Assembly (NCBI GenBank): GCA_001512915.1
Contig: LFTC01000021.1
Coordinates: 2,493-52,684 of the forward strand
Direction of reading: 5' to 3'
Origin: Clostridiales bacterium DTU083
GTDB lineage: Bacteria > Bacillota > Clostridia > Caldicoprobacterales > DTU083
DNA length: 50,192 nt
Each line of letters begins with the position of its first letter. Position 1 is the stretch's first letter. This document shows, one piece after another, positions 29,839 through 48,004 of this stretch. Under the pieces are notes generated by a model. That model did no database searches. It worked only from the letters and a program-made list of their open reading frames with translations, and was not told where the DNA came from. A program made the position numbers and the translations under genes.

Positions 29839-29866
29839 TATACGTCAGAATATAATTAAAGTTTTT
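29839..29866 (-). promoter_or_regulatory. Weak ECF-type promoter candidate upstream of the LCP gene
   Basis: On the minus strand, AAAAAC (29861-29866), 16-bp spacer, CGTATA (29839-29844). The -10 equals that of B. subtilis sigma-W promoters, while the -35 keeps only the AAC core of TGAAAC. LCP genes are often under ECF control, but this match could be chance. Confidence 0.25.
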
Positions 29867-31610
29867 ATTTATATACAGCCAAAGGAACAATTCGAGACTT
29901 TTTTAATACTCCTTGTTTATTGGCATAATCAAAAAGAATTATTACTCTACCCTTCTGATAAGATAAGGGGTCTGTTAAATCCAATCTATAATCAAAGACT
30001 TCTATATGAACCTTTCTCTTAATCTGTCCAGGTGAATGGCCTTTCCATTCAGGAAGCTTACAATTCAAATTATCTTCATTCCTCAAAAATTCATCACAAA
30101 GCCGGCTGGTTTTTTCATCCATCAATGATTTCAAGCCATTTGGATACCGCCCTGGCTTGCTATGCTGCAGAAAATCAAAAAGAAGCAATTGTTTGAATAA
30201 ACTAACATCAACAAAAGAAAGTGTTTCTGCAAAATGCAGCAGATATTCATAAAGACTAATATGACTGTGTGATACACAGAAATACCCATAATGTCTCCAA
30301 TATTCTGCCATACGATCGAATACAATAAAAGCATTACCTTCAGTTTGTCTTATAAGATAAGCAAGTGAGCGATCAAAGCGATGGGAATTATAGTATTTTT
30401 CTATTAGTTCTTCTATACGTTTTAACCTTATCAGGTCTTTATAAGACAGCACATGATTAGAGAGCACTTCATAGGGAGGATAACTGGTATAACGATATTT
30501 ATATTTTTCTTCTTCTTCTCTTAGACCAGACCCTTTCAATAGTTTCAGAAAACCCAGCTGGAGTCTGTGTGGTGACAGCTGCATTACTTTATTTATGGAC
30601 TGAATCATAGAAGACATGTCTTCCTCTGGCAGACCAGCAATCAGGTCAAGATGAACGTGAATATTATCCATTTTAATTATATTGACAACAGCGCTGGCAA
30701 TTTTGTCAAGATCAGTCTTTCTTTTAATTGCCTCCAAAGTGTCCTGCTTTGTAGATTGTATACCAATCTCAAATTGAAACAGACCCACAGGTGCCTGAGA
30801 AAGAATATCCAACATTTCATCATCTATCAAGTCTCCTGCCATCTCAAAATGAAAATTAGTTTTCCCTCCCAAGTCTATAAGATAGCGAAAAATTTCTTTC
30901 GCCCTGGCAGGATTACAATTAAAGGTACGGTCCACTAATTTTACTTGTCTGGCACCTGAACGAATGAAAAAAGCCAACTCTTTTTTTACACGTTTCAAAG
31001 ATAAGAACCGTACTTTTCCTGTAGTGGAAGACAGGCAATATTGACAGTTGAAAGGACATCCCCGGGAAGTTTCATAATAAATAATTTTATTTTTTAAATC
31101 CTGAAATCCATCTTCATAAGCAAAAGGAATATCATCCAGTACTAATGGCGGACGGTTCCCGTTATATATAACTTGTCCATTGCTGCGCCATACTAATCCT
31201 TTTACTTGAGCCGGTTCACGATTCTGAACAATGCAATCCAACAATTCCTTGAATGTTCTTTCCCCTTCACCTGATACAATGTAATCTATCAGTTTATTCT
31301 CCTGCATCAAATCTACACCGTCATAAGTTACTTCCGGCCCGCCCAATACGATTATACAATCGGGAACAACCTTTTTTACAGTATCTATAACATCAAGTGT
31401 TTGCCTGATATTCCAAATATAACAGGAGAAACACAGAACATTCGGCTCTTTTTCAACTAAGTCGGATACAACCTGCTCCAAAGGATCGTTTATAGTATGC
31501 TCCATAATATTAATATTGGGATATTCTTTCCGGCAATATGCCTTTAAAGTTCTCAAGGCAAGATTGCTGTGTATAAATTTTGCATTTAATGTAGTCAATA
31601 AAATGTTCAT
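29865..31610 (-). CDS. B12-binding-domain radical SAM protein (DUF4080 type)
   Basis: Predicted cobalamin-binding radical SAM enzyme; its substrate is unknown. The N-terminal B12-binding-like domain (about 1-130) contains LLTTLNAKFIHSNLALRTLK and IVLGGPEVTYDG, but lacks an obvious DxHxxG, as is common in this class. The radical SAM domain (about 175-400) has the CxxxCxxC cluster motif in SRGCPFNCQYC. The C-terminal 190 residues match no motif I know apart from resembling DUF4080 proteins. I use the ATG at 31610. The track-length form adds six residues from 31628, but a TATAAT sits between the two ATGs and no ribosome binding site is present. The gene may be leaderless. Confidence 0.85.
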   Translation of the reverse strand: MNILLTTLNAKFIHSNLALRTLKAYCRKEYPNINIMEHTINDPLEQVVSDLVEKEPNVLCFSCYIWNIRQTLDVIDTVKKVVPDCIIVLGGPEVTYDGVDLMQENKLIDYIVSGEGERTFKELLDCIVQNREPAQVKGLVWRSNGQVIYNGNRPPLVLDDIPFAYEDGFQDLKNKIIYYETSRGCPFNCQYCLSSTTGKVRFLSLKRVKKELAFFIRSGARQVKLVDRTFNCNPARAKEIFRYLIDLGGKTNFHFEMAGDLIDDEMLDILSQAPVGLFQFEIGIQSTKQDTLEAIKRKTDLDKIASAVVNIIKMDNIHVHLDLIAGLPEEDMSSMIQSINKVMQLSPHRLQLGFLKLLKGSGLREEEEKYKYRYTSYPPYEVLSNHVLSYKDLIRLKRIEELIEKYYNSHRFDRSLAYLIRQTEGNAFIVFDRMAEYWRHYGYFCVSHSHISLYEYLLHFAETLSFVDVSLFKQLLLFDFLQHSKPGRYPNGLKSLMDEKTSRLCDEFLRNEDNLNCKLPEWKGHSPGQIKRKVHIEVFDYRLDLTDPLSYQKGRVIILFDYANKQGVLKKSRIVPLAVYK

Positions 31611-31616
31611 AGTAAT

Positions 31617-31647
31617 ATTATATATCATTTTTTACTTATATCATCAA
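31617..31647 (-). promoter_or_regulatory. Promoter candidate placing the radical SAM ATG at the transcript 5' end
   Basis: On the minus strand, TTGATG (31642-31647), 19-bp spacer, TATAAT (31617-31622), then only six bases before the ATG at 31610. Transcription would begin at or next to the start codon. No Shine-Dalgarno sequence occurs upstream of either possible ATG. Confidence 0.45.
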
Positions 31648-34428: not shown

Positions 34429-34809
34429 TTAAGGAATTACATTGAATTTAACTCCTGGAAGCATTTGTTCCATATTGCGAATAATTGAATTGCTGCTATG
34501 CGGATCAGGGGACTCACCCATTACAATTTCAGTAATTTGGTTTTTCTTAGCAAAATTAAGCAAAGTATTCACAATATTATCAGAACGAAGCACTGTCATT
34601 TCTGCTCCAGCCTGTTTTGAAACCTGAAAGAGATACTCCAGCGCTTCCCCTTCATCAGGATTTCCAAGTACATTTACCCCTGTCTTTGTAACATGAACTA
34701 CCTTTAAAGCACCATCTTTCTGCCCATTTACCAGTTTCTGCCCGATCTTAATCAATCGTTCACAGGTTTTCTGGCGGGTAACACAGACCATCACTCTGGG
34801 AACACTCAT
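34429..34809 (-). CDS. Universal stress protein-like (UspA/KdpD Usp domain type)
   Basis: A 126-residue single-domain protein of the HUP/Usp fold, closest in appearance to the Usp domain of KdpD sensor kinases: VMVCVTRQKTCERLIKIGQKL at the N-terminus (beta strand, then helix), and ITEIVMGESPDPHSSNSI, which carries the (V/I)-G-x-x-x nucleotide-loop region in degenerate form. There is no signal peptide. It is separated from the small gene by a bidirectional terminator. A lone TATAAT (34855-34860, minus strand) could be its -10. The nucleotide-binding loop is not classical, so ATP binding is uncertain. Confidence 0.7.
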   Translation of the reverse strand: MSVPRVMVCVTRQKTCERLIKIGQKLVNGQKDGALKVVHVTKTGVNVLGNPDEGEALEYLFQVSKQAGAEMTVLRSDNIVNTLLNFAKKNQITEIVMGESPDPHSSNSIIRNMEQMLPGVKFNVIP

Positions 34810-34949: not shown

Positions 34950-35897
34950 TTACTGCTCATCTCCAATAACACGTACAAATACGGTTTTTTCCTTGCCCCC
35001 GTATACCGGTCTCAAAAGAACCTTGTCATATCCGGTACTGTTAGCATAAAGCAATTTCATTTCTTTATCTAAGCTTGCAACATTATTCTCTCCTTCTGTA
35101 AAAAGGCTGGAATATGATACTTCGACAGGGTTAACTGAATTTCCAATAAAAGCAATATATTCACCAATATTAATACTGATATCCTGAAGTGCAGGAATAA
35201 TCTCACCGGATTCATCAACCTGATAGGGAATATAATAAGTGACTATCTTTTCTTGTTTTTCCGGAATCAGACGGATTTCTTTCAAAGCACCGTTTATTAT
35301 CTCAATTTCACCTTCATCAATGTAATTTTGTTCCATTAATGTTACAAGCTGATTTTTTCTGTAGCCGAGTACTCTATAATGAATAAACTGCATATTCTTA
35401 TTATGTGTAGATATTACTGCCATATCTGGTATTTCACTTGGAAAATAAATCATAAGAACCGGACCAGGCTCATCGCTGTTTTCAAACATGCTGCTGTAAA
35501 CCATCTCGTAATTTCCGTTATATTCCGAATCCCATATAACTGCCAATAAATTGTCTCCGGTTTGATCCGGCTTACTAATTTTGAAATAATCCAAGAGCTG
35601 TGGGGTTGTATCCGATTCACTGAGTTTGATCTTTTCCTGGGATACAGGATCTCCAAGCGAAGCATTTGCCATCTCTATCTGCCTGTTATATTCATTAATA
35701 ATAAGAGCTGAAAACCCTATAATAAAACAGCATATACATGCAATGGCTGCATAAAGTTTCAAGCTGCTTTTCTTTTTTTGTCTTATTCTGGCAAAAACAC
35801 TTTTGCGTAAGCTTTCATTATTATATTTGGAAAAAAAACGGTCCGCTTCGTATTTCGCCCTTGACAGCAATGTATTCATATCATTGAAGTCTTTCAT
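34950..35897 (-). CDS. Probable transmembrane anti-sigma factor of the ECF sigma gene
   Basis: A 315-residue protein that begins 4 bp inside the end of the ECF sigma gene (35894-35897), the usual arrangement of sigma/anti-sigma pairs. The N-terminal 45 residues are cytoplasmic and charged, one membrane segment follows (about 48-68, AIACICCFIIGFSALIINEY), and the remaining 245 residues would be outside and beta-rich. No zinc-binding HxxxCxxC of the ZAS class is seen, so the sigma-binding region would be of another type. Assignment rests on position and topology. A surface sensor that holds the sigma factor inactive is the simplest reading. Confidence 0.68.
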   Translation of the reverse strand: MKDFNDMNTLLSRAKYEADRFFSKYNNESLRKSVFARIRQKKKSSLKLYAAIACICCFIIGFSALIINEYNRQIEMANASLGDPVSQEKIKLSESDTTPQLLDYFKISKPDQTGDNLLAVIWDSEYNGNYEMVYSSMFENSDEPGPVLMIYFPSEIPDMAVISTHNKNMQFIHYRVLGYRKNQLVTLMEQNYIDEGEIEIINGALKEIRLIPEKQEKIVTYYIPYQVDESGEIIPALQDISINIGEYIAFIGNSVNPVEVSYSSLFTEGENNVASLDKEMKLLYANSTGYDKVLLRPVYGGKEKTVFVRVIGDEQ

Positions 35898-36442
35898 TTC
35901 ATGACCTCCAAGGGTAATGATTGTTTAAGCAGTTTTCTCCCCCTGTAAAGTCTGACTTTTACATTGCTTTCGCTTATTTTTAGTATTTCAGCTATTTCCG
36001 ATACCGAGAAACCATCAAAGTAATATAATGAAATAGGTATGCGATATTTTTTGGGAAGATCCATGACCATGCTGAATACTTCTCCACCGTCTATTTCTTC
36101 AAAATGTTTATTTGTCCTCATGACAGTATGGAACCAATCATCTGCAAGACCTGCTGTTATAAATTTTCTAAAAGCTGCTGATTTGAGATAATCCTTGCAT
36201 AGGTTTACCGTAATTCGGTAGATCCAGGTATAATAACTGCTTTCTTTCCTGAATCTATCCAAATTACGATAAACCTTTATAAATACTTCCTGATAAATGT
36301 CTTCAGCAAGATGCAAATCCCTTAAATAGTAGTAGGCCAGCCTAAGAACTTGCCTGCCAAATCTCCTCATCAAATATTCAAGCTGGGCGTCTTTATCCGT
36401 AACGGCTGAGGGATTCTCCTTTTTGTTTTTATTCACAGCCAT
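35894..36442 (-). CDS. ECF-family RNA polymerase sigma factor
   Basis: A 182-residue extracytoplasmic-function sigma factor with region 2 (VLRLAYYYLRDLHLAEDIYQ, then VFIKVYRNLDRF for -10 recognition) and region 4 (LPKKYRIPISLYYFDGFSVS plus the helix-turn-helix EIAEILKISESNVKVRLYRG). There is no region 3 or 1.1. The ATG at 36442 is 33 bp after the ABC permease and the gene overlaps the anti-sigma-like gene by 4 bp. The operon carries an ECF-type promoter (39585-39613) that this factor could recognise, implying autoregulation. Confidence 0.92.
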   Translation of the reverse strand: MAVNKNKKENPSAVTDKDAQLEYLMRRFGRQVLRLAYYYLRDLHLAEDIYQEVFIKVYRNLDRFRKESSYYTWIYRITVNLCKDYLKSAAFRKFITAGLADDWFHTVMRTNKHFEEIDGGEVFSMVMDLPKKYRIPISLYYFDGFSVSEIAEILKISESNVKVRLYRGRKLLKQSLPLEVMK

Positions 36443-36474
36443 CTCTCCAAGACTTATGATAGTTCACAGGAAAA

Positions 36475-37419
36475 TCAGGCTCGTATTTCTCTTCTCATGA
36501 AAAATATATAAGATAGTGCAAAGCAAATCATATTTAAGGCAATCAGACTCACCAGATGGGGCCAAATCAGCAGTACGCTCTGGAAAAAAGGCAAAGCTCC
36601 GGGTATCGCACCTATAAGTCTGTCGACTGTAATAATGCTGACTGTTCTGACGCCAGGATTAAGCAGACATATAGTTGCTTCACTAAACAGGGTTGCAGGT
36701 GATATACGATTAATCATCAGCTCCAGGTTGCTGTTTCTCAATTGCATTTCTATGGATGATGTTTCGTCTACAGGAAATAGTGCATCTGATATTACACCTG
36801 CCAATAGCCCGACAAATATCGATAGAAACAGCCAGGCAGCAATACAAGCAAGAGCAGATGTAGCTGACTGCTTAAATAATAATGAGAATAGCTGTGATAA
36901 TGCAAGCCAAATTGACATATAAAAGATGGTTACTACAAAAAATGACAATAGTCTTAAAATTTCTTCAACCGTCGGAGGAATACCTATCATTATTATACCT
37001 ATAGCTCCTACAGCAATACCTAAGGAAAGCACCATAATAGAAATTACTGTAATTCCTGCTAAAAATTTGCCGTTAATGACATTATCTCTGTGTATAGGTT
37101 GAGCAAGCAGACGGCTCATTGTTCCCCTGTTAAGCTCCCCGTTTATGGAGTCAAATCCGATGGCAAGGCCTACTAAGGGCCCCAATAAGGAAATAAAAGA
37201 TATAAATGAAGGTATGGAATTACCAGAAGCGGTAAAAAGCCTCAAAAATACAAACTCATTTCCTTCCTGAGCAACAGCTTCCCTTATGCCGCTGGCTGCA
37301 GCATAAATACTGGCCAGTCCTGTAACTGTAATAAGTATCAAAAGTATTACAAATCTTTTGCTTCTTAAGTGATCAGCCAGTTCTTTTCTATACAGAACCA
37401 ATAGACTGCTATTAGTCAT
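36475..37419 (-). CDS. ABC-2 type transporter permease
   Basis: A six-helix ABC-2 permease of about 314 residues. It opens with a cytoplasmic N-terminus (YRKELADHLRSKRFVILLIL) followed by hydrophobic segments. GELNRGTMSRLLAQPIHRDN matches the cytoplasmic loop typical of NosY/ABC-2 exporters, which couples to the ATPase. I chose ATG 37419 (GGAGTG just upstream) rather than the open frame from 37461, which would overlap the ATPase gene by 38 bp. It is partnered with the ATPase directly upstream. Substrate unknown; the neighbourhood suggests an envelope function. Confidence 0.88.
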   Translation of the reverse strand: MTNSSLLVLYRKELADHLRSKRFVILLILITVTGLASIYAAASGIREAVAQEGNEFVFLRLFTASGNSIPSFISFISLLGPLVGLAIGFDSINGELNRGTMSRLLAQPIHRDNVINGKFLAGITVISIMVLSLGIAVGAIGIIMIGIPPTVEEILRLLSFFVVTIFYMSIWLALSQLFSLLFKQSATSALACIAAWLFLSIFVGLLAGVISDALFPVDETSSIEMQLRNSNLELMINRISPATLFSEATICLLNPGVRTVSIITVDRLIGAIPGALPFFQSVLLIWPHLVSLIALNMICFALSYIFFMRREIRA

Positions 37420-37423
37420 TGGA

Positions 37424-38368
37424 TCACTCCTCTCTGGCAAAATAACGGCTGTAGATATCATCTAAATCTCTTCCTGTTTGTTTAAGGAACAAAACCTTAT
37501 AATCATTGTCGCTTAGAAGTCTGAGAAGAGGTTTTCTGATATCGTCTATTGATTCAATAATAATCTGTTCATGATCTACAATTTTAATCTTTATGTCTTC
37601 TCTTATTGATTTTATCAGAGATACCAGCTTGTCGTCCACCGGCTCTATATTCAGTTCGAGAGTTAATGGCTTGCCTTTAAATACCTGCTCACCAAGAGTA
37701 TGAATAGGTCCCTCAGCTATCAGATGTCCCTTTACAAATATGCCTACACGATCGCAAATTTTTTGTATCTGATATAGCTGATGAGAGGAAATTAATACAG
37801 TTCTTTTGTCTTCTCTGGCAAGGTCAGCAATTAGATTCAGCATTTCATTGATGCCGGCAGGATCAAGCCCTATCGTGGGTTCGTCCAATATTATTACTTT
37901 CGGATCCTTCATTAAAGTGTCAGCTATTCCCAAACGCTGCTTCATTCCTTTGGAATATGTGCCGACTCTTTTATCGCCTACATCAGAAAGTTTTACGCGT
38001 TCCAGAAGAGAATCAATCCTTGATTCAATCTCCTCTTCACTCAAACCGTTCAGCCGGCCTGTAAATCTGAGATTCTCTCTTGCTGTCATATCCTCATAAA
38101 ATCCAACATTGTCGGGCAGATACCCTACCATTCTTTTTATATATATGGGTTCTTTAGTTGTATTGTGCCCGTCAATCGTAGCAAAGCCTGAAGTTGGTTC
38201 TGTTAGTCCAAGAAGCATCAGAATGGTTGTAGTTTTGCCTGCCCCGTTAGGACCTAACAGACCAAATATCTCACCTTCATAAATTTCAAGGTTGAGATTA
38301 TCGACAGCCGTCAGATCTTCATATTTTTTTGTTAATTCTTTGGTCTTAATCATTACATTTCTGCTCAT
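37424..38368 (-). CDS. ABC transporter ATP-binding protein
   Basis: An ATPase of about 314 residues in the CcmA/NatA-like family. Walker A is LLGPNGAGKTT, the signature motif YSKGMKQRLGIA, Walker B KVIILDEPTIGLDP, and the switch His is in ISSHQ. The C-terminal 80 residues form a regulatory domain. ATG 38368 has GGGAGACG as ribosome binding site; the longer frame from 38452 lies within the upstream gene. It begins 2 bp after the NEW3 protein stop and ends 4 bp before the permease start, so the three are one transcriptional unit. Confidence 0.93.
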   Translation of the reverse strand: MSRNVMIKTKELTKKYEDLTAVDNLNLEIYEGEIFGLLGPNGAGKTTTILMLLGLTEPTSGFATIDGHNTTKEPIYIKRMVGYLPDNVGFYEDMTARENLRFTGRLNGLSEEEIESRIDSLLERVKLSDVGDKRVGTYSKGMKQRLGIADTLMKDPKVIILDEPTIGLDPAGINEMLNLIADLAREDKRTVLISSHQLYQIQKICDRVGIFVKGHLIAEGPIHTLGEQVFKGKPLTLELNIEPVDDKLVSLIKSIREDIKIKIVDHEQIIIESIDDIRKPLLRLLSDNDYKVLFLKQTGRDLDDIYSRYFAREE

Positions 38369-38370
38369 TT

Positions 38371-39546
38371 TTATCGTCTCCCATACTTTTGAAATACCCA
38401 GTACAGGCCAGCAACAAGCAGAAGAATGACAAGAACGCCCACTATACCCCATAGTGTTGAGGTTTTAACCATTACGCGCAATTCAGCGGAATTTTTCACT
38501 TCCGGAGTTTCGGCTGAAATGGATACTACATAGTCTCCTGCCAGTGCTTTATCCTCAGGTTGTATATAAGCTCTAATGGTTGCTGATTCTCCTGGAGCGA
38601 TAGCATCAATAATATCCTGTTCAAATTCTACGTTCCAGCCGCTCGGCTGTTCAGATTTAAGTTTTATACCTTGAAGTTCTGTGCTTCCTGTATTTTGTAT
38701 CAGGATATCTACCGCTTGCCGTCTGCCCGCAATAGTCTCTGCATTCAGTCTTCCAGAGGGAGTTGTTACTTCCATGCCATAATTACCTGTTATAATAACT
38801 TTAAGCTCTGTTACCAAAGTCTCATTTTTAGACGCCACTGTTACCGGAATTACATATTCACCTGCTGTTACGTTTGCAGGCGGTGTTACTTCAACTTCCA
38901 CTTCTGCTGATTGATTTGCTTCTATTGGAATGCTTGCGATTTGTTTTCTATCACTCTTTGCAATAAAGTTAACCTGCCAGCCTCTTTCAACCTGAGCAGT
39001 CAAACTATAGGTCTGTGCTTCACTCTTATTGTTTTTTATTTCCAGTTCAAAACTGAAACTAGTATCGCTGGAGCCTGTCAATTCAGTATAATTGGCAGTC
39101 AAAGAGCCTTTGTTTTCAATGTCGGATTTTATATCATATTCCATAACCAGGCGATCACTGATTTCTCCTGATACGGCATTTATTATTACTGTATATTTTC
39201 CTTCCTCTACTTCAGCTGGAATCTGAACTGTCAAACTCATTTCCACATCTTCTTCTGCAACATATGCTTTTTCAATAATCCTTCCATCGCCTTCCAGATA
39301 TGCTTCCCAGCCCTGAGGCAAAGATTCAATTTCTAAGTCCACTGTCATGCCCTGATCGGTTTTATTAGACAATATTATGTCTGTTTGAACATTTTCTCCA
39401 GGTTTTGCTGCTATGCTGGGATAAGTAGTATAAATTGTAAGTCCGTCTGCAGCCAGTGCATTATTTGCAGGAATTGAAAATACCAGTAATGATACCATTA
39501 CGAAAGCAATTAATGTTTTTACAAATTTGATATTTTGAGTATGCAT
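38371..39546 (-). CDS. Membrane-anchored NEW3-domain surface protein
   Basis: A 391-residue protein with a signal peptide (LIAFVMVSLLVFSIPANNALA, cleaved after residue 32 or so), around three immunoglobulin-like NEW3-type repeats, and a single C-terminal membrane anchor (IVGVLVILLLVAGLYWVF) ending in basic residues. Each repeat shows the NEW3 pattern of a PG-(E/Q) turn and a later GW (AKPGENVQTDI, LPQGWEAYLEG; SGWNVEFEQDII, IAPGESATIRAY). It has no enzyme motif. It is the first gene of the ABC/ECF operon, preceded by an ECF-type promoter and a GGGGG ribosome binding site. It probably acts as an extracytoplasmic partner of the ABC exporter. Confidence 0.85.
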   Translation of the reverse strand: MHTQNIKFVKTLIAFVMVSLLVFSIPANNALAADGLTIYTTYPSIAAKPGENVQTDIILSNKTDQGMTVDLEIESLPQGWEAYLEGDGRIIEKAYVAEEDVEMSLTVQIPAEVEEGKYTVIINAVSGEISDRLVMEYDIKSDIENKGSLTANYTELTGSSDTSFSFELEIKNNKSEAQTYSLTAQVERGWQVNFIAKSDRKQIASIPIEANQSAEVEVEVTPPANVTAGEYVIPVTVASKNETLVTELKVIITGNYGMEVTTPSGRLNAETIAGRRQAVDILIQNTGSTELQGIKLKSEQPSGWNVEFEQDIIDAIAPGESATIRAYIQPEDKALAGDYVVSISAETPEVKNSAELRVMVKTSTLWGIVGVLVILLLVAGLYWVFQKYGRR

Positions 39547-39584
39547 ATGTGTTTACCCCCTTATTTATTTTAATGTCCATAACT

Positions 39585-39613
39585 TAGACGAATTAAAATT
39601 CATTAAGGTTACA
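39585..39613 (-). promoter_or_regulatory. ECF-type promoter of the NEW3/ABC/sigma operon
   Basis: On the minus strand, TGTAAC (39608-39613), exactly 17 bp, CGTCTA (39585-39590), about 39 bp upstream of the first ATG. The AAC core and CGTC are the hallmarks of ECF promoters (compare B. subtilis sigma-X TGTAAC and sigma-M/V CGTC elements). It heads the operon that encodes an ECF sigma factor, so autoregulation is the natural reading. Confidence 0.65.
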
Positions 39614-39899: not shown

Positions 39900-41213
39900 T
39901 TACTGTTTTAAATACTGATTTATTCTTCTTTCAAGTATTCTTAGAGAGCTTTCAACATTCTTGTCATACTGTATAATTTCTTGAATTCCAGCATTTGCTA
40001 TAGTGACAGCTTCATTGTATTTGAGAATTTTAGGAGCAACAGCTCCTTCCTCTATTACCCTACTGAGCAGTAAATTGTCTATTACTTTTTCGCTCTCGTC
40101 CATTCCTTCCCGCAATATGCTTTCAGCCATCTGGGATCTGGTAACATTCTTTATTACAGAAGCTCCTTGGGAATATCTGAAGATGTCCATTTGTATATCT
40201 TCATCGTATGTCAATAATTTTAAGAATTCCCAGGCCAATTCTCTATGGACAGTTTTACTGCTTATACCCATCAAAAGAGTATTTACCTCAGATATATTAC
40301 CTCCGCTTTTGCCAGCAGGAAAAGTTATGCAATCCCATTGGAAATTCAAATATTTTTTCATTCTATAAGGATATGCCTTGTAAGTTCTGTATTCCGCAAA
40401 TGAAAGAGGCATGAAGACTACATTGCCTGTATCAAAATCCTCCTGAGTCACAGTTTGTTCCCTATTCAACAAATGTATGTCTTTCATAAACTTAACAGCT
40501 TCAACAACTTTTGGATCGGTTAGATCAATTTTCATATTATTCTCATCAAACAGATTTGCCCCATTTGTCCTTGCTGCATCCATCCAGCAGTAATTATATA
40601 TCCCAAATTGATCTAAAATACCGTCGTCATCAAAATCCTTTGTAACTTTTTCGCATATCTCATAAAGATCATCCCAGGTCCAACCGCTGTCAGGAATGCT
40701 TATTCCTTCTTTTTGTAAGAGGGTTTTATTCACAAACATTAAAGTCGGAACCGTTTCATAGGGAAGTGCATACTGCGTGCCTTGATACTCACCCGATAAT
40801 AGAGCTGTTTGAAAATATGCATTAGTATTAAATTCCGCATCTTTATTGATTAATTCCTCAAGATTCATCAGTATGCCCAGGGAGGCAAATTCATTAAAAT
40901 CATCGGATAGTATCATAAACACATCAGGGGTTTCACCCAGGAGCACTTTTTTGGCGAGCCATTCTGAATAAGCATCTTTCCTGATGCCGCTGGAATAATG
41001 TATTCTAACATTTTTATATTTTTTTTCAAAGCGTTCAATTGCTTTATCAATGATAATATAACTGTCAGCGTTTGCTACATCCCAATTGCTGCCTGCAAAC
41101 ATCCCAAATTCAAGTACTATCGTATTAGACTCTTTTACCATAGAAAAAGCATGAGTTGACAAAATTGCAATAAGAATAATTACCATCATGATTATATATC
41201 TTTTCTTATTCAT
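39900..41213 (-). CDS. Family-1 extracellular solute-binding protein without cognate permeases
   Basis: A 437-residue binding protein of the MalE/UgpB type: hydrophobic N-terminus (YIIMMVIILIAILSTHAFS), then ERFEKKYKNVRIHY, LGETPDVFMILSDDFNEFA, GTQYALPYETVPTLMFVNK and the WTWDDLYE block near 190. There is no lipobox cysteine, so it is secreted or stays tethered by the uncleaved signal segment. No permease of this family is encoded nearby. It overlaps the response regulator gene by 8 bp and ends the operon. A sensory or accessory role with the two-component system is inferred. Confidence 0.88.
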   Translation of the reverse strand: MNKKRYIIMMVIILIAILSTHAFSMVKESNTIVLEFGMFAGSNWDVANADSYIIIDKAIERFEKKYKNVRIHYSSGIRKDAYSEWLAKKVLLGETPDVFMILSDDFNEFASLGILMNLEELINKDAEFNTNAYFQTALLSGEYQGTQYALPYETVPTLMFVNKTLLQKEGISIPDSGWTWDDLYEICEKVTKDFDDDGILDQFGIYNYCWMDAARTNGANLFDENNMKIDLTDPKVVEAVKFMKDIHLLNREQTVTQEDFDTGNVVFMPLSFAEYRTYKAYPYRMKKYLNFQWDCITFPAGKSGGNISEVNTLLMGISSKTVHRELAWEFLKLLTYDEDIQMDIFRYSQGASVIKNVTRSQMAESILREGMDESEKVIDNLLLSRVIEEGAVAPKILKYNEAVTIANAGIQEIIQYDKNVESSLRILERRINQYLKQ

Positions 41214-41886
41214 TGCCCATCTCCAGTCTTCCCTTGCCTATCCCGGACTGCACCGCCCAAATAGCCAATTGTGTTCTGTCTCTTAAGTTTAATTTGCCTA
41301 GAATGACACTTAAATAATTCCTGACCGTTCCTTCCGAGAAGTTCAGCACTTCAGCAATTTCCTTGTTTGATAATCCATATCCTACCTGCTCAATAATCTT
41401 CTGTTCAGTTCTTGTTAGCTGTTCCACCTGTTCTTTTCCTACTTCAATAACAAAATTGCTTCGTGCCATCTGTGAAAACAGTTTTACTACTTTGGTTGCT
41501 ATATCAGGATTGATCATCGCTTTTCCGCTGTAAACTGTGTTTATGGCTTGTACCAATTCTTCCACCGATGCACCTTTAAGCAAATAGCCACTGGCACCAT
41601 ATTTCAAAGCATTATAAACGTATTCATCATCATCAAAAGTAGTCAATATCAAAACCTTTATGTCAGGATATTTTTCTTTTATTAACTTGGTGCATTGTAC
41701 GCCATCCATTTTTGGCATGCGAATATCCATAAGGATTACATCAGGCCGGTTTTTTTTTACACTTTCAAGTACAGCAAGCCCGTCAGGAACCACATCAGTT
41801 ACCTCAATATTGTTTTGATTATTCAATATAATTTTTAAGCTGGCACGAATCAGTTCCTGATCATCAGCTATAAGTACTTTTATCAT
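41206..41886 (-). CDS. NarL/LuxR-type response regulator
   Basis: A 226-residue two-component regulator. The receiver domain has the acidic pair Asp8/Asp9, phosphorylation site Asp54 (VILMDIRMP), Thr82/83 and Lys104. The C-terminal LuxR-type helix-turn-helix contains LTRTEQKIIEQVGYGLSNKE and EGTVRNYLSVILGKL. ATG 41886 has GGAG 8 bp upstream and is preferred to a GTG three codons earlier. It overlaps the histidine kinase end by 23 bp and the downstream binding-protein gene by 8 bp. Its partner is the adjacent kinase; its target is probably the sugar operon itself. Confidence 0.93.
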   Translation of the reverse strand: MIKVLIADDQELIRASLKIILNNQNNIEVTDVVPDGLAVLESVKKNRPDVILMDIRMPKMDGVQCTKLIKEKYPDIKVLILTTFDDDEYVYNALKYGASGYLLKGASVEELVQAINTVYSGKAMINPDIATKVVKLFSQMARSNFVIEVGKEQVEQLTRTEQKIIEQVGYGLSNKEIAEVLNFSEGTVRNYLSVILGKLNLRDRTQLAIWAVQSGIGKGRLEMGNE

Positions 41887-43204
41887 ACTCTTCACTCCAT
41901 CTGATAGGTATCCTTGCTATGACCGTAAAGCCATCCGTTCCATCAAATTCGACAGTACCATTAAGCATTCTAACTCTTTCCTTTATATGCCTTAAACCAA
42001 AACCTTGGTTTATTTCCTTGCAACCGCTTCCATTATCTCTGACGGTAAGTATGATACCCTCTTCATCACCTTTTATATTAACCCATATTTGCTTTGCATC
42101 TCCATGCCTGATGGCATTAGTAATGCTTTCCTGTATTATTCTATAAATAGCATCCTCTTCATCTGCTGCAAAATTCAAATTATCAACATATGAACTAAAA
42201 TAAATACGTGTATTAGTCATGGATTCAGTTTCCATAATCATCTGATGAATAGCTGATTTTAAGTTAAGCCTCTCAAGAGCATCCGGTCTTAGCTTATTAA
42301 CTGAACGCCTTACCTCCTTTATACCATCCCTGGTAACCTTAGCTATTATTTCTAATTGCTTTTTTGTCTCTTCAGGAGACTTATCCAACATGGTTATGCA
42401 TGCGTCTATTCCTGCTGATATGCCGGTGAGGGTATGGCCTATAGTATCATGAATCTCCCTTGCAAGACGATTTCGCTCCTTGGTTTCACCCATTTTCTCA
42501 GTAATAATGGAATACTCTTTAAGTTGTTCATTCGCTTTTCGCAAATCCTCATTCGCTTTTTGCAGCTTTTTGTAAAGACTGTTTACTTCATCAATGGTTC
42601 CTCTCTGATTCTGTATAACATTTATGCAGTAAATAATAAACATTATTACGTTTATTGATACTATAAGATTAAAAAAACCCAGTAAATACTGTTGAGTTAC
42701 GGAATCATAAAAGCCGATGTAATCATTTATTGAATATAGCCTGTAATTAATGGAAATGAAATCATAATCTGCAATAAGAATGCTCATAACTGCAATTATC
42801 ATAAGAAGATATCTGCCTACAGTGCCTTTTGTATAAGTAATTATATTAGCTATAACAAGAAAAAGGATTCCATTGTAATTGAAATCTAAAATAAAAATGA
42901 TAAATATGCTGATAACAAAATCAATAATAAGGGTAAGATAGGCTGCCTTACTGCTGTTAGGATATATAAACTCACGGACTGTGAATGATAAGATCAATAC
43001 AGAAAACAGCAAGGCAGATGATAATATATTGCTTGTAGGCTTTGCGGGTAAGGCTGAAACAGATCTTATAAATTGCCGGGCAATAAAATTATCACATATT
43101 TTTTGTATAGTAAAATAGATGAATACTGTTATAAACATAACAGCAATCAAATTGGTAGCAAGCATTAGAATTTTAAAATAAATAAATCTCCTGCTCTTTT
43201 GCAT
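41864..43204 (-). CDS. NarL-family sensor histidine kinase with six-helix N-terminus
   Basis: A 446-residue kinase. About six membrane segments occupy residues 12-196 with short loops, a coiled coil follows (about 203-235, KANEDLRKANEQLKEY), then a HisKA_3 dimerisation domain with phosphorylated His252 (AREIHDTIGHTL), and a HATPase domain (N-box ITNAIRHGDA, G1 DNGSGC, G2 GFGLRHIKERV). ATG 43204 follows AGGGG; the open frame from 43246 lies in the upstream gene. Since it has no large external domain, it probably reads a ligand through the membrane-anchored binding protein encoded just before it. Confidence 0.92.
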   Translation of the reverse strand: MQKSRRFIYFKILMLATNLIAVMFITVFIYFTIQKICDNFIARQFIRSVSALPAKPTSNILSSALLFSVLILSFTVREFIYPNSSKAAYLTLIIDFVISIFIIFILDFNYNGILFLVIANIITYTKGTVGRYLLMIIAVMSILIADYDFISINYRLYSINDYIGFYDSVTQQYLLGFFNLIVSINVIMFIIYCINVIQNQRGTIDEVNSLYKKLQKANEDLRKANEQLKEYSIITEKMGETKERNRLAREIHDTIGHTLTGISAGIDACITMLDKSPEETKKQLEIIAKVTRDGIKEVRRSVNKLRPDALERLNLKSAIHQMIMETESMTNTRIYFSSYVDNLNFAADEEDAIYRIIQESITNAIRHGDAKQIWVNIKGDEEGIILTVRDNGSGCKEINQGFGLRHIKERVRMLNGTVEFDGTDGFTVIARIPIRWSEEYDKSTYS

Positions 43205-43217
43205 GGAATGCCGTCCC

Positions 43218-44183
43218 CTATTGCCATTCATCAATTTCAAATTCATCCAGGTTGTCTTTTGTTATAAGCGTAACAGGTACAACAATGTCTTTTTCAACTT
43301 TTTCCCCATTTAAATACGCATATGCAACTTCAGCTGATATTTTACCCATATAACTGGGATATTGTGCGCTGGTCCCCTCCAAATATCCTTCCCTTATCAT
43401 CATTTTGCCATCCGGAGATCCGTCTATACCATATATTAATATATCACCTGTCATATGATGAGACTCAATTGCTGCCAAAGCGCCCAGTGCAGTAGGATCA
43501 TTTCCTCCTAATACAACATCAAATTTCAATCCGGATTCAATAATGCTGTTCATTACTTCCATTGCAACTTCCAATTCACCTCGTGCGGCTTCCTGAGCAA
43601 CAATCCTGTAATTGCTGTTTCCTTCTATCGTATCTTTAAAACCCTGAACCCTCTGGGTTATAGAATTGATTATAGGCTGATCCAGAATTACAATGTCGGC
43701 AGAGTCCAGTTTGGACATCATGTCCTGAGCACACTGAACTCCCGCATTGTAATTATCAGAAGCAATGACTGATACTACCAGATCAGTATCATAAACATAT
43801 GTATCTACGTTAAATACAGGAATGTTCGCTTCTTTACAGGCAATCAGAGCAGGCTTGACTCCTTTCCAATCAACTGGATTAATAAAAATTGCCTGTACTC
43901 CCTCTTCTATCATTTCATATATCTGCTGATTCTGTTTATCCTGATATGTTGCTGGATCTCTTGTAATCAAATAGTCACCGTTCGCTTCTACTACTTCTCT
44001 GATTCCCCCATCCAATATATCAAAATAAGGATTGTTCATAGTCATGTAAGTAGCGCCAAATTTCCTGGGGGCTTGCGGTTCAATAGCTTTCTGGTTAAAC
44101 ACAAATATATATATTAAATAAACGATGATAGATACAGCTATCAGGCTGACTATTAATGATCGTTTTATTCCAAGTGCTTTCAT
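43218..44183 (-). CDS. Membrane-anchored sugar-binding protein (RbsB-like), probable sensor subunit
   Basis: A 321-residue periplasmic-binding-protein fold (type I, RbsB family) with an uncleaved-looking membrane anchor at residues 9-29 (LIVSLIAVSIIVYLIYIFVF) and no lipobox cysteine. It is clearly a paralogue of the lipoprotein at 46868: both have NPxFxxL near the start, VLGGNDPTALGALAA or IFGGNDPTALGALAA, the YG(I/V)DGSPD block, and a -(I)-D-x-W-Q C-terminus. It lies 13 bp before the kinase gene. Similar pairs are known (for example XylFII with LytS in Clostridium beijerinckii), supporting a role in ligand sensing rather than transport. Confidence 0.88.
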   Translation of the reverse strand: MKALGIKRSLIVSLIAVSIIVYLIYIFVFNQKAIEPQAPRKFGATYMTMNNPYFDILDGGIREVVEANGDYLITRDPATYQDKQNQQIYEMIEEGVQAIFINPVDWKGVKPALIACKEANIPVFNVDTYVYDTDLVVSVIASDNYNAGVQCAQDMMSKLDSADIVILDQPIINSITQRVQGFKDTIEGNSNYRIVAQEAARGELEVAMEVMNSIIESGLKFDVVLGGNDPTALGALAAIESHHMTGDILIYGIDGSPDGKMMIREGYLEGTSAQYPSYMGKISAEVAYAYLNGEKVEKDIVVPVTLITKDNLDEFEIDEWQ

Positions 44184-44256
44184 TATTCATCTCCAGCATT
44201 TTAAAGAAATGTTAATGCACGTTTACAACAGCTTACTATATTATATCATATCACAT

Positions 44257-45264
44257 CTAATTCTTCATTTCTTTTCGGCCTTGTCTTATATAGTCAATGA
44301 ATACGGCCAAAAGTATAACTATGCCTTTTACAACATATTGCCAGAAAGAGCTGACATTCAATAGATTCAAACCGTTATTCAATACGCCGATAATAAGTCC
44401 GCCGATTATTGTGCCGCCTATTTTGCCATATCCGCCTGCCATACTGGTTCCGCCTACTACTACAGCCGCAATGGCATCCATTTCGGCACCCTCACCTGCA
44501 GTGGGCTGGCCTGAATACATACGTGAAGCCAATACTATTCCTGCCAAACCTGCCATTAATCCTGAATAAGTAAATACAAGAAACTTGACTTTTGACACCT
44601 TAATACCGGAGAACACTGCAGCCACCGGGTTGCCACCAACGGCATATATATGTCTTCCCAGCTTGGATTTATTCATTATTAGCGCGGTTACTATAAGAAC
44701 AGCTACCAGAATGATTACAGGAGTCGGAATAGCCCCGATATAACCTGCTCCTAGAAACTGCCATTCTTTAGTAACTACTCTTACCGGAGAACCGCCGGTA
44801 TAAACATACGCCAGGCCTTTGGCTATATTCATGGTTGCCAGGGTAACAATAAAGGGAGGGATTGTTGTTCTGGATATAATCAAACCGTTAAACATTCCGA
44901 ATAGCAAGCCGGTTATCAACCCTAATATTAGAGCAGCACCTAAAGGAAGGTTGTAACGCACGACACCACCGGCAGCAAGACATCCTGATAAGGCAATAAT
45001 TGAACCTACTGACAAATCTATGCCGCCTAATATAATTACCATGGTCATGCCGCAGGCTAAAAACAAGTTGGTAGAAATCTGCCTTAGCACATTGAAAATA
45101 TTTTTCATTGTAAGGAAGGACGAACTGGTAATGGGGTTTACAGACAATATAAATGATAACACAAAAAGCGCTATTAAAATTCCCAGATTGTCTTTAAACC
45201 ATTGGGTTACTCCATCCCGCATATTATTAATACTGTTTCGATTTCTAAGATCTACTCTGTCCAT
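44257..45264 (-). CDS. rbsC: Ribose-type sugar ABC transporter permease (RbsC family)
   Basis: A 335-residue permease with about nine or ten membrane segments. Family motifs are GMTMVIILGGIDLSVGSI, IVTLATMNIAKGLAYVYTGG, and GGTSMAGGYGKIGGTIIGG near the C-terminus, the usual coupling region for RbsA. A GGAGGAG ribosome binding site precedes the ATG. It lies between the ATPase gene (20 bp upstream) and the sensory genes (73 bp downstream). It would import a monosaccharide (ribose, galactose, xylose or similar) bound by the lipoprotein at 46868. The rbsC symbol denotes family, not proven sugar. Confidence 0.93.
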   Translation of the reverse strand: MDRVDLRNRNSINNMRDGVTQWFKDNLGILIALFVLSFILSVNPITSSSFLTMKNIFNVLRQISTNLFLACGMTMVIILGGIDLSVGSIIALSGCLAAGGVVRYNLPLGAALILGLITGLLFGMFNGLIISRTTIPPFIVTLATMNIAKGLAYVYTGGSPVRVVTKEWQFLGAGYIGAIPTPVIILVAVLIVTALIMNKSKLGRHIYAVGGNPVAAVFSGIKVSKVKFLVFTYSGLMAGLAGIVLASRMYSGQPTAGEGAEMDAIAAVVVGGTSMAGGYGKIGGTIIGGLIIGVLNNGLNLLNVSSFWQYVVKGIVILLAVFIDYIRQGRKEMKN

Positions 45265-45285
45265 GTGAATTCTCCTCCTTCACAA

Positions 45286-46770
45286 CTAATTGGCAGCCAG
45301 TTTCATAATCTTTTCCTGGGTTACCTCCCGGTGATTCAGGCAGCCAGTTATTCTGCCTTCACTCATAACATAAATCCGGTCGCTCATATTAATTATCTCA
45401 GGCATTTCAGAAGAAATTAATACTATTGCCATACCTGACTTTGCCAACTCATTCATAATTGCATATATTTCGGATTTGGCTCCTACATCCACTCCCCTGG
45501 TCGGTTCATCAAGAATCAATATCTTGGGCGATGTAGCCAGCCATCTTGCTATCATAACCTTTTGTTGATTTCCTCCTGAAAGGTTAGCTATTATCTGATC
45601 CGCAGAAGGTGTTCTTACGGACATTTTTTCAATATATTCTTGTGTAATGGACACTTCCTTCTGACGATTTACTAATACCCCTTTTATAAATTCTTTCAAT
45701 ATGGCAATTGTCATATTAAACTTGACGCTTTGAACCGGAAACAAACCTTCCAGCTTTCGATCTTCGGGTATCAGAGCAATGCCATGTTCAATGGCCTGAT
45801 CAGGCGAATTTATTTCAACTTTCTTCCCATCTATATATATCTCGCCTGAATATCCTTTGGTCAGACCGAACAGGCATTTCATCACTTCGCTTCTTCCCGC
45901 TCCGACCAGACCGGCAAATCCGACAATTTCACCTTTTCTTACTTCAAAGCTAACATCCTTAACCAACTTATTGTCAGAAATATTCCTACATTCCAGCAAA
46001 ACTTCCCCATCATCCTGGTAGTCTCTGATATAGTAATTTTTTAGCTCACGGCCGACCATCATGGAAATCAGTTCGTTTTTATCTGTTTCCTTGACAACCT
46101 TTGTTCCAATGTACTCTCCATCACGCAGGACGGTTACTCTGTCACATACTTCATCAAGCTCACTCATCCTATGAGAAATATAAATAATTCCTACTCCTTT
46201 TTCGGTCAACACTCTCATGGTTTCAAACAGGAATTTTACTTCCTTTTCAGAAATAGACGAAGTTGGTTCGTCCATTACAAGAATTTTCGAATTCTGAGAG
46301 ATAGCTTTAATTATTTCAACCATTTGCTGTTGTGCAATGGTCAAATCTTTTACCATAGATCTGGCATTAATATTAATCCCATAGCTGTCTATTAGATGTT
46401 GGGCTTCTTCATGCATGAGGGCTGAATTAACAAACTTGCCCTTCATTGGCTCACGGCCAAGATAAATGTTCTCAGCTACTGTCATATATGGAACTAGAAC
46501 AAGTTCTTGGTGAATAATGGCAATACCATTATTTTGTGCGTCCTTAACACTTCGGATTTCTACTTTTTTTCCCTCTATGTAGATTTCTCCCTGGTCAGCC
46601 GCATAGATGCCGCCCAACACCTTTATTAGCGTGGACTTGCCAGCACCGTTCTCACCAAGAATTGCATGGACTTCTCCGGCCCTAAGTTCAAAGTCTACAG
46701 CTTTTAAAGCATAGACGCCGGGAAATGTTTTGTGTATATTTTTCATTCTTAGCAATACATTTGAATCCAA
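45286..46770 (-). CDS. rbsA: Sugar ABC transporter ATPase with two nucleotide-binding domains (RbsA/MglA family)
   Basis: A 494-residue tandem ATPase. The first domain (about 8-230) has Walker A ILGENGAGKSTLIK, signature LTIAQQQMVEI and Walker B KILVMDEPTSSI. The second (about 255-490) has FAGLVGAGRSEVMKCLFG, LSGGNQQKVMIARWL and ILILDEPTRGVDVGAKSEI. The degenerate GAGRSE Walker A in the second half is normal for this family. The start is TTG at 46770 with AGAGGGTG 7 bp upstream. It belongs to the sugar import operon, between the binding lipoprotein and the permease. Confidence 0.95.
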   Translation of the reverse strand: MDSNVLLRMKNIHKTFPGVYALKAVDFELRAGEVHAILGENGAGKSTLIKVLGGIYAADQGEIYIEGKKVEIRSVKDAQNNGIAIIHQELVLVPYMTVAENIYLGREPMKGKFVNSALMHEEAQHLIDSYGININARSMVKDLTIAQQQMVEIIKAISQNSKILVMDEPTSSISEKEVKFLFETMRVLTEKGVGIIYISHRMSELDEVCDRVTVLRDGEYIGTKVVKETDKNELISMMVGRELKNYYIRDYQDDGEVLLECRNISDNKLVKDVSFEVRKGEIVGFAGLVGAGRSEVMKCLFGLTKGYSGEIYIDGKKVEINSPDQAIEHGIALIPEDRKLEGLFPVQSVKFNMTIAILKEFIKGVLVNRQKEVSITQEYIEKMSVRTPSADQIIANLSGGNQQKVMIARWLATSPKILILDEPTRGVDVGAKSEIYAIMNELAKSGMAIVLISSEMPEIINMSDRIYVMSEGRITGCLNHREVTQEKIMKLAAN

Positions 46771-46800
46771 GTCCCATCACCCTCTTTCTACACTTAAGAA

Positions 46801-46826
46801 AATAGGGCGTTGTAAAACGTCCTATT
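46801..46826 (-). terminator. Intercistronic stem-loop between the binding protein and ATPase genes
   Basis: AATAGGGCGTT (46801-46811) and AACGTCCTATT (46816-46826) pair over 11 bp with one G-T wobble and a 4-base loop; on the leftward transcript only TT-C-TT follows. Such hairpins after the binding-protein gene commonly let it be expressed more highly than the downstream ATPase and permease, by partial termination or mRNA stabilisation. Confidence 0.6.
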
Positions 46827-46867
46827 ATAAAACAGCGATACATTTTACAACGGCCCCACAATTTAAG

Positions 46868-47938
46868 TTATTGCCATCCATCTATACCATATTCATTTAC
46901 ATTTTCACTGGTGATTAGGAATGTTTCAACAGGATATCTGTCTTGAACTTGTTCGCCGTTGAGATACTTGTACATAACTTCAACCGAAATTTTTGCAATG
47001 TTGATAGGTGACTGTGCGCCGCTTCCTTCAATCAAAGAATCGCCGCTGGCCAGTTCTTTTTTAATATCCGGTGAACCATCAACACCATAGATAAGTACAT
47101 CTTTCAGCCCTGCAGCATTTGCGGCAGCAAGTGCTCCAAGCGCAGTAGGATCGTTTCCACCGAAAATAGCGACTACGTTGCTGTGTGCCTGAAGAAGATC
47201 TTCTGCTATACCCATGGCAACTTCAAGATTTCCTTTTGCATCCTGTTCTGCAACAATTTCAAATCCTTTACCTTCAATTGCGTCCTTGAACCCCTTTTCT
47301 CTGTCATTAATAGAGTTCATGGTCGGAGAATCCAGGATGATGATTGGTCCGCCGTCAGGACGTTTCTTAACAAGGTCCTCGCCGCAAACATAACCTGCAT
47401 TGTAATTGTCAGAACCTACATATGAGAAACAATATTCCAGTTCAGCTACTTCAGTGTCAAAATTCAGTATCGGTATGCCAGCTTCTTTCAGCATATCCAG
47501 TGCAGGAAGAATTCCTTCGGCTTCAGCAGGATTTAAAAATATTGCATCAATGCCCTGTGTAATCATATCTTCAATTTGTGTAATCTGTAGTGTAACGTCA
47601 TTGGCAGGATCTGCAGAGATTAATGTATCTCCGTTTGCTTCTACGCCTTCTCTGATGGTCTGTTCAAGAATTACAAAGAATGGATTGGTTCCGTCCATAC
47701 AAGTGTAACCAAATTTCCAGCCGCCCTCAGGTCTTTCTCCAAGCGGTAAATTTGACCCAGAATCCCCAGAATCAGATGGAGGTTCGTCAGCTGGTTCTGA
47801 TGTGCCCGAATCATCCGATGGCTGGGATGTGCCGGGATCACTGTCTGCAGGCTGCTGTGCCTGCTGTCCGCAACCGCTCAGCAAAAGAACGGCGATTAGT
47901 AGAACCGATAACAGGATACTAAATAAACGCTTGTTCAA
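46868..47938 (-). CDS. rbsB: Sugar-binding lipoprotein of a ribose-type ABC transporter (RbsB family)
   Basis: The first gene of the sugar operon, encoding the high-affinity binding lipoprotein. I start it at the TTG at 47938, because AAGGAGGAG lies 9 bp upstream and the resulting signal peptide (KRLFSILLSVLLIAVLLLSGC) is complete with lipobox LSGC. The longer frame from 47977 would put that ribosome binding site inside the gene. After the lipidated cysteine comes a flexible Ser/Asp/Pro-rich linker, then the type I binding fold with NPFFVILEQ, FLNPAEAEG, FGGNDPTALGALAAANA and YGVDGSPD. It is about 356 residues. It closely resembles the membrane-anchored paralogue at 43218. Confidence 0.93.
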   Translation of the reverse strand: MNKRLFSILLSVLLIAVLLLSGCGQQAQQPADSDPGTSQPSDDSGTSEPADEPPSDSGDSGSNLPLGERPEGGWKFGYTCMDGTNPFFVILEQTIREGVEANGDTLISADPANDVTLQITQIEDMITQGIDAIFLNPAEAEGILPALDMLKEAGIPILNFDTEVAELEYCFSYVGSDNYNAGYVCGEDLVKKRPDGGPIIILDSPTMNSINDREKGFKDAIEGKGFEIVAEQDAKGNLEVAMGIAEDLLQAHSNVVAIFGGNDPTALGALAAANAAGLKDVLIYGVDGSPDIKKELASGDSLIEGSGAQSPINIAKISVEVMYKYLNGEQVQDRYPVETFLITSENVNEYGIDGWQ

Positions 47939-48004
47939 AGTTGATCTCCTCCTTGCCTTTTTCTTTGAGTTTAGCAATTATGACCAAAAAACACACCTGA
48001 ATAT

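Follow-up and report, generated by a model that had tools for sequence, protein, structure and literature searches.

We analysed a window of 50,192 nucleotides from contig LFTC01000021.1 of assembly GCA_001512915.1 (Clostridiales bacterium DTU083), and coordinates given here are positions in this window unless a locus name precedes them. Five leftward genes lie at the locus and encode, from the head of the operon onward, a protein with NEW3 domains, the ATPase and the permease of an ATP-binding cassette (ABC) system, an extracytoplasmic function (ECF) sigma factor and an anti-sigma-like membrane protein (Table 1). The gene coordinates bear out the spacings of 2, 4, 32 and -4 bp that an earlier note on this DNA had given. 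The TGTAAC-N17-CGTCTA element that the same note had placed ahead of the first gene was found at 39613-39585, with 38 bases between the end of CGTCTA and the ATG of the NEW3 gene and a predicted transcription start at about 39577. Gene order, promoter conservation, the tie between promoter and sigma factor and the protein architectures were read from the sequence.

Conservation of the gene order and the promoter

The comparative search proposed in the earlier note was run with the NEW3 protein and the permease in 291 genomes of the class, and the DNA surrounding the matches (13 for each protein, own genome included) was read. The order NEW3-ATPase-permease-sigma-anti-sigma recurs in distant Clostridia wherever the contigs reach and was found in G001, G033, G293, G223, G188, G032, G066, G048 and G083. 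The incomplete cases were a unit split between contigs (G284) and two cut by the contig (G167 and G018); in G031 the protein following the sigma factor was not recognised as an anti-sigma homologue, and the distant unit of G101 has neither a sigma gene nor the promoter element. Except for this sigma-less unit, all loci of the class with upstream DNA carried the element upstream of the NEW3 gene, with TGTAGC in G048. The flanking genes vary between relatives, which indicated that the five genes belong together as one unit. Given that the gene order and the promoter at its head are conserved and that the sigma gene lies inside the operon, these comparisons support the autoregulation that the earlier note had suggested for one operon with an ECF-type promoter and an internal sigma/anti-sigma-like gene pair, and a self-contained autoregulated sigma/anti-sigma operon appears well supported.

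The promoter pattern is rarely expected by chance (mean of 0.07 matches per shuffled window with spacers of 15-19 allowed), and its conservation is the stronger evidence for a promoter. With at most one mismatch, the element was present in 25/25 head regions of related sigma-type units (18 exact, 7 with one mismatch) as compared to 1/48 sigma-less relatives and 24/2500 shuffles, numbers that are descriptive only, given the kinship of the loci and the close pairs among them. Sigma linkage was directly visible for 23 of these head regions, one unit was split between contigs (L048, whose sigma gene lies on the other contig, as does the remainder of the split gene) and one was on a truncated contig (L042). 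A simple pattern search found the site in 0/50 sigma-less loci. The spacer was 17 bases long in 22 regions, 18 in L104 and 16 in L149 and L154. In the 22 aligned N17 sites the two boxes had an information content of 1.84 and 2.0 bits per base and the spacer 0.38, and since the boxes were kept and the spacer was not, selection would have acted on the promoter and not on the flanking DNA in general. The element also followed the gene arrangement: in the loci with the sigma gene at the 5' end (L105, L149 and L154) it precedes sigma and not NEW3, and in the Moorella locus (L122) it lies between the anti-sigma gene and NEW3.

The scan of the genome for TGTAAC-N17-CGTC, also suggested in the earlier note, gave a single exact match with the N17 spacing in this genome of 1.9 Mb (89% complete), against 9 matches of the reversed control pattern; the exact element was also found once in the genome of a relative of the same genus. 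Given the single exact site, a one-operon regulon is the simplest reading, and it concerns exact sites, with weaker sites outside this judgement. In other genomes the exact-site counts ranged from 0 to 5 and were overall not above the reversed-pattern control, so that no wider regulon was seen at this level.

TGTAAC/CGTC is a common type of ECF promoter in Gram-positive bacteria, and the genome holds further ECF-like genes, so the promoter might be real while transcription of the operon depends mostly on a different ECF sigma factor and the linked one serves other promoters. We regard this as improbable, since the element accompanies linked sigma genes so closely in the comparison of head regions, moves with sigma in the 5'-sigma arrangement and is not repeated as an exact site elsewhere in the genome.

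Table 1. Genes and sequence features of the five-gene unit, with positions in the window
Feature	Position	Strand	Remarks
-35 element TGTAAC	39608..39613	-	from sequence; kept in sigma-linked relatives
-10 element CGTCTA	39585..39590	-	spacer exactly 17 bases; CGTC invariant in 22 aligned sites
NEW3 protein gene	38371..39546	-	391 aa
NEW3 C-terminal membrane helix, residues 367-385	38392..38448	-	from hydrophobicity; borders conserved
ABC ATPase gene	37424..38368	-	314 aa; 2-bp gap after NEW3 gene
ABC-2 permease gene	36475..37419	-	314 aa; 4-bp gap after ATPase gene
ECF sigma gene	35894..36442	-	182 aa; 32-bp gap after permease gene
Anti-sigma-like membrane protein gene	34950..35897	-	315 aa; 4-base overlap (ATGA) with sigma gene
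Single membrane helix of anti-sigma-like protein, residues 49-67	35697..35753	-	from hydrophobicity

The operon is followed directly (34429-34809) by a gene for a small Usp-like protein that resembles the sensor region of KdpD (NF038185, 9.7e-09), and further on (29865-31628) one for a radical SAM protein with a B12-binding domain and DUF4080. The next genes upstream (39900-47977) encode a solute-binding protein, a NarL-type response regulator, a HisKA_3 kinase, an RbsB-like protein and a ribose-type ABC importer (permease 44257-45264, ATPase 45286-46770, binding protein 46868-47977), and they are likely a sugar-sensing and import cluster.

The core with other regulators

A scan with the permease alignment over genomes of 84,980 species gave 80 loci, and as judged from these the NEW3-ATPase-permease set is a widespread core. 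The sigma gene lies behind the permease in 20 of the loci and in front of NEW3 in 4, and in 35/80 a response-regulator or kinase gene is found directly behind the permease. Moorella stamsii and Marasmitruncus massiliensis are cultured representatives of the sigma type, and Lachnoclostridium sp. An14 is one of the two-component type. The earlier note had described the exporter as locked to a dedicated sigma factor and had named homologues with unlinked genes as an observation that would speak against it. Such sigma-less cores do occur, and the lock was not borne out: most relatives have no linked sigma gene, and 35 have a two-component gene instead. At the 17 loci with neither a sigma nor a two-component gene the regulators may be encoded elsewhere. 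In one distant relative (L049:6008-9461) the ATPase, permease and NEW3 genes are followed by a gene for a second permease, and both the sigma gene and the promoter are missing.

Among the two-component examples that were tested, those of Lachnospiraceae pair an OmpR-type regulator with a HisKA kinase, and one from a Chloroflexi genome pairs a NarL-type regulator with a GAF kinase. The permease tree unites the two-component-linked Lachnospiraceae in a single group with good support, and three sigma-linked rows are placed immediately outside it; L102 and L103 (Diplocloster), in which the core has no linked sigma factor or two-component system, are placed at the base of this group. Most two-component-linked loci carry TTCAGA-N5-TAAAGSTT upstream of NEW3, followed by a TATRAT-like box, and some of those among L108-L166 have a second TAAAGSTT 11 bases away. 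TAAAGSTT was present at 26/31 two-component-linked loci, 0/21 sigma-linked loci and 0/15 loci with neither (shuffles 1.5%), and the difference between two-component and sigma loci is marked (Fisher p = 7e-10, kinship between loci uncorrected). TTCAGA-N5-TAAAGSTT is a probable OmpR-type operator in Lachnospiraceae, to which the response regulator would bind.

Given that sigma and two-component loci carry different upstream elements, regulator and promoter element differ together. We lean slightly towards the view that the core belongs to an unnamed widespread envelope ABC family in which regulator and promoter are exchanged together, an ECF sigma/anti-sigma pair with TGTAAC-N17-CGTC being used in some Clostridia and an OmpR-type system with TTCAGA-N5-TAAAGSTT in Lachnospiraceae, and both sensors would then report the same outside signal.

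Proteins and possible mechanism of the module

The NEW3 protein has three stretches of the Ig-like Pfam family PF10633 (6.6e-30), a signal-type N-terminal helix, one C-terminal membrane helix as predicted from hydrophobicity and a terminal KYGRR; both helices are present in complete NEW3 homologues, and a sequence search of the PDB found no relative. Among 75 NEW3 homologues there is hardly any variation in an RVxVxT..WG stretch at the last helix or in the terminal GRR. This suggests a fixed contact of the C-terminal helix with the permease. The ATPase belongs to ABC_tran (PF00005) and is DrrA/ABCA/NosF-like; its best PDB matches were the lipid transporters ABCA3/4/7, followed by NosF (1.2e-47). 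With the DrrA drug-export model TIGR01188 it scored 256.5 bits, below the cut-off of 312.45. The permease matched ABC2_membrane_2 (PF12679, 1.7e-36), and NosY was the sole relative of its profile in the PDB (7o0y_D, E 3e-10). An anchored outer protein is encoded alongside the ATPase-permease pair in nearly all relatives.

The sigma factor has regions 2 and 4 only (Sigma70_r2 5.3e-19, Sigma70_r4_2 1e-15) and scored 100.7 bits with TIGR02937 (cut-off 42.9). Its small two-region make-up, together with an AAC/CGT-type promoter before its own operon, the latter established by conservation, places it among the ECF sigma factors; with the SigY equivalog NF007216 it scored 84.7 bits (cut-off 194). In a tree with long branches the linked sigma factors group together, apart from three paralogues of the DTU083 genome.

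The last protein has a short cytoplasmic N-terminus, one membrane helix and an extracytoplasmic domain of about 240 aa, and its gene overlaps or adjoins the sigma gene across relatives, which together correspond to the general architecture of membrane anti-sigma factors. In each of 25 such proteins a single helix was predicted, located within residues 47-105. The homologues range from 206 to 401 residues and have 26 to 61% identity to the protein in the window, a variation in length and sequence that is expected of a sensor. An AlphaFold2 model gave a beta-sandwich ectodomain (mean predicted local distance difference test score 75, low over the first 80 residues). Comparison of this fold returned generic beta-sandwich matches only, with low template modelling scores, and a PDB sequence search with the protein returned nothing. 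The zinc-binding anti-sigma type does not fit, there being no cysteine in the first 48 residues and hence no HxxxCxxC motif. For the DUF4179/RsiV type, PF13786 gave 14.7 bits (gathering threshold 30.1) and matched 1/12 homologues even at E 0.5. From its position, its topology and precedents such as RsiV we infer that the last protein acts as a membrane anti-sigma factor.

Taken together, we consider it probable (about three chances in four) that the five genes together make up an envelope module that regulates itself and is induced by a signal, with a NosDFY-like ABC complex as its product; anti-sigma activity, complex formation, transport and the nature of signal and substrate are what we infer in the following scheme. 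At rest the last-encoded membrane protein would use its short N-terminus in the cytoplasm to hold the sigma factor. An outside signal sensed by the beta-sandwich ectodomain would free the sigma factor, probably by regulated proteolysis as in RsiV-type anti-sigma factors. Free sigma factor would read TGTAAC-N17-CGTC and raise the NEW3 protein, the ATPase and the permease, and since sigma and its inhibitor would be raised as well, the response would amplify and limit itself, with the inhibitor from the same transcript ending it. The complex, composed of a NosY-type permease, the ATPase and the anchored NEW3 protein on the outer face, would export or extract something harmful.

Several observations weigh against this scheme. 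No intrinsic terminator could be identified downstream of the last gene; the scan, which covered terminators and sigma-70 promoters, gave nothing in excess of shuffles. The genome has five further ECF sigma matches, some weak or partial, of which one could read the promoter too, and the last protein matched no Pfam family, including anti-sigma families, above threshold. Regarding promoter conservation, the gene start was set by hand in L104, L122 and L144 to bring the site upstream of the gene, the contig of L042 stops before the expected sigma position, and with several close pairs among the related loci the locus counts are not counts of independent events.

A serious rival to export or extraction, and one that we hold as possible without favouring it, is mechanotransmission as in NosDFY: ATP hydrolysis would shift the outer NEW3 protein so that it remodels an extracytoplasmic partner or passes it on, without any molecule being carried across the membrane. 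The restriction of the PDB matches of the permease to NosY, the NosF matches that follow the ABCA proteins for the ATPase and the nearly constant co-encoding of an anchored outer protein are all compatible with such a machine, but for the ATPase the ABCA lipid transporters and drrA-type exporters are the better-scoring matches, the NEW3 protein does not have the NosD fold by family search, and no metalloenzyme gene accompanies the core.

Detoxification of antimicrobial peptides or bacteriocins is plausible, if tentative, as the purpose of the pump: a lipid-II- or membrane-active peptide would be the signal and the pump would remove it, in a Bce-like role. The wiring is that of known envelope-defence modules, in which an ECF sigma factor or a two-component system controls one ABC unit, the regulon probably comprises a single operon, and a change of regulator would be expected of a stand-alone defence unit. 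However, no resistance, peptide, immunity or cell-wall gene was consistently adjacent in the neighbourhoods of the relatives, where the only conserved neighbour outside the module was the two-component system, and neither the permease, which is not of the FtsX type, nor the kinases of the two-component version, whose outer loops of about 115 residues (in L109 between helices at 16-34 and 152-170) are unlike BceS (PMC10314905), resemble the Bce parts.

Relation to known systems

The earlier note could not match the unit to a named system, and this held for all systems compared: the unit lacks at least one of the tested defining features of each of SigY-YxlFG, RsiV-type systems, NosDFY and Bce, and it is therefore filed under none of them. 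The nearest are SigY-YxlFG in logic, Bce for the two-component version and NosDFY in machine parts. The sigY-yxlCDEFG operon of B. subtilis is autoregulated and consists of an ECF sigma factor, negative regulators and the ABC pair YxlF/YxlG, the regulators of SigY being small proteins of other make-up than the last protein here. It is similar to the DTU083 unit in combining these three elements in a single operon, but sigma comes first in that operon and the NEW3 protein is present only in the DTU083 unit. The function of YxlF and YxlG is listed as unknown (PMC11466899).

SigV/RsiV (DUF4179, ECF30) shares the one-helix membrane anti-sigma factor that carries its sensor domain on the outside and whose gene immediately follows that of sigma, and once lysozyme has bound, RsiV is cut by signal peptidase and RasP (PMC6066255); however, no RsiV-like structure was among the best fold matches of the last protein, and an ABC complex is the target in the present unit. 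NosDFY has in common the NosY-related permease, the NosF-related ATPase and a co-encoded outer partner, which here is a membrane-anchored NEW3 protein (PF10633) instead of the NosD beta-helix and is under sigma or two-component control; no genes for nitrous oxide reductase or another metalloenzyme were seen beside the core. BceAB-BceRS is likewise a stand-alone module, and the Lachnospiraceae version resembles it in joining an ABC unit to a two-component system. It differs in that the permease here is of the ABC-2 type (ABC2_membrane families only), that a separate outer NEW3 protein is present and that BceS is an intramembrane-sensing kinase (PMC10314905), unlike the long-looped kinases here. 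No papers linking NEW3, an ABC transporter and a sigma factor, or describing a NEW3-ABC unit, were found in the limited literature searched, which is not proof of absence.

The unit draws attention to a NosY-type ABC complex whose outer partner is Ig-like and which occurs in bacteria of the gut and in other anaerobes; no experimental study of it was found in the same literature. In our view the joint change of regulator and promoter is more interesting than the supposed lock to a sigma factor. It would represent a natural experiment, in which a conserved pump core is combined, in the same chromosomal slot, with either of two unrelated regulatory systems that have their own recognisable promoter elements, and the signal can be approached from two sides, through the sigma and the two-component versions. 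The family thereby offers a case of promoter and regulator changing together around a constant pump, that is, of a rewiring of pump control.

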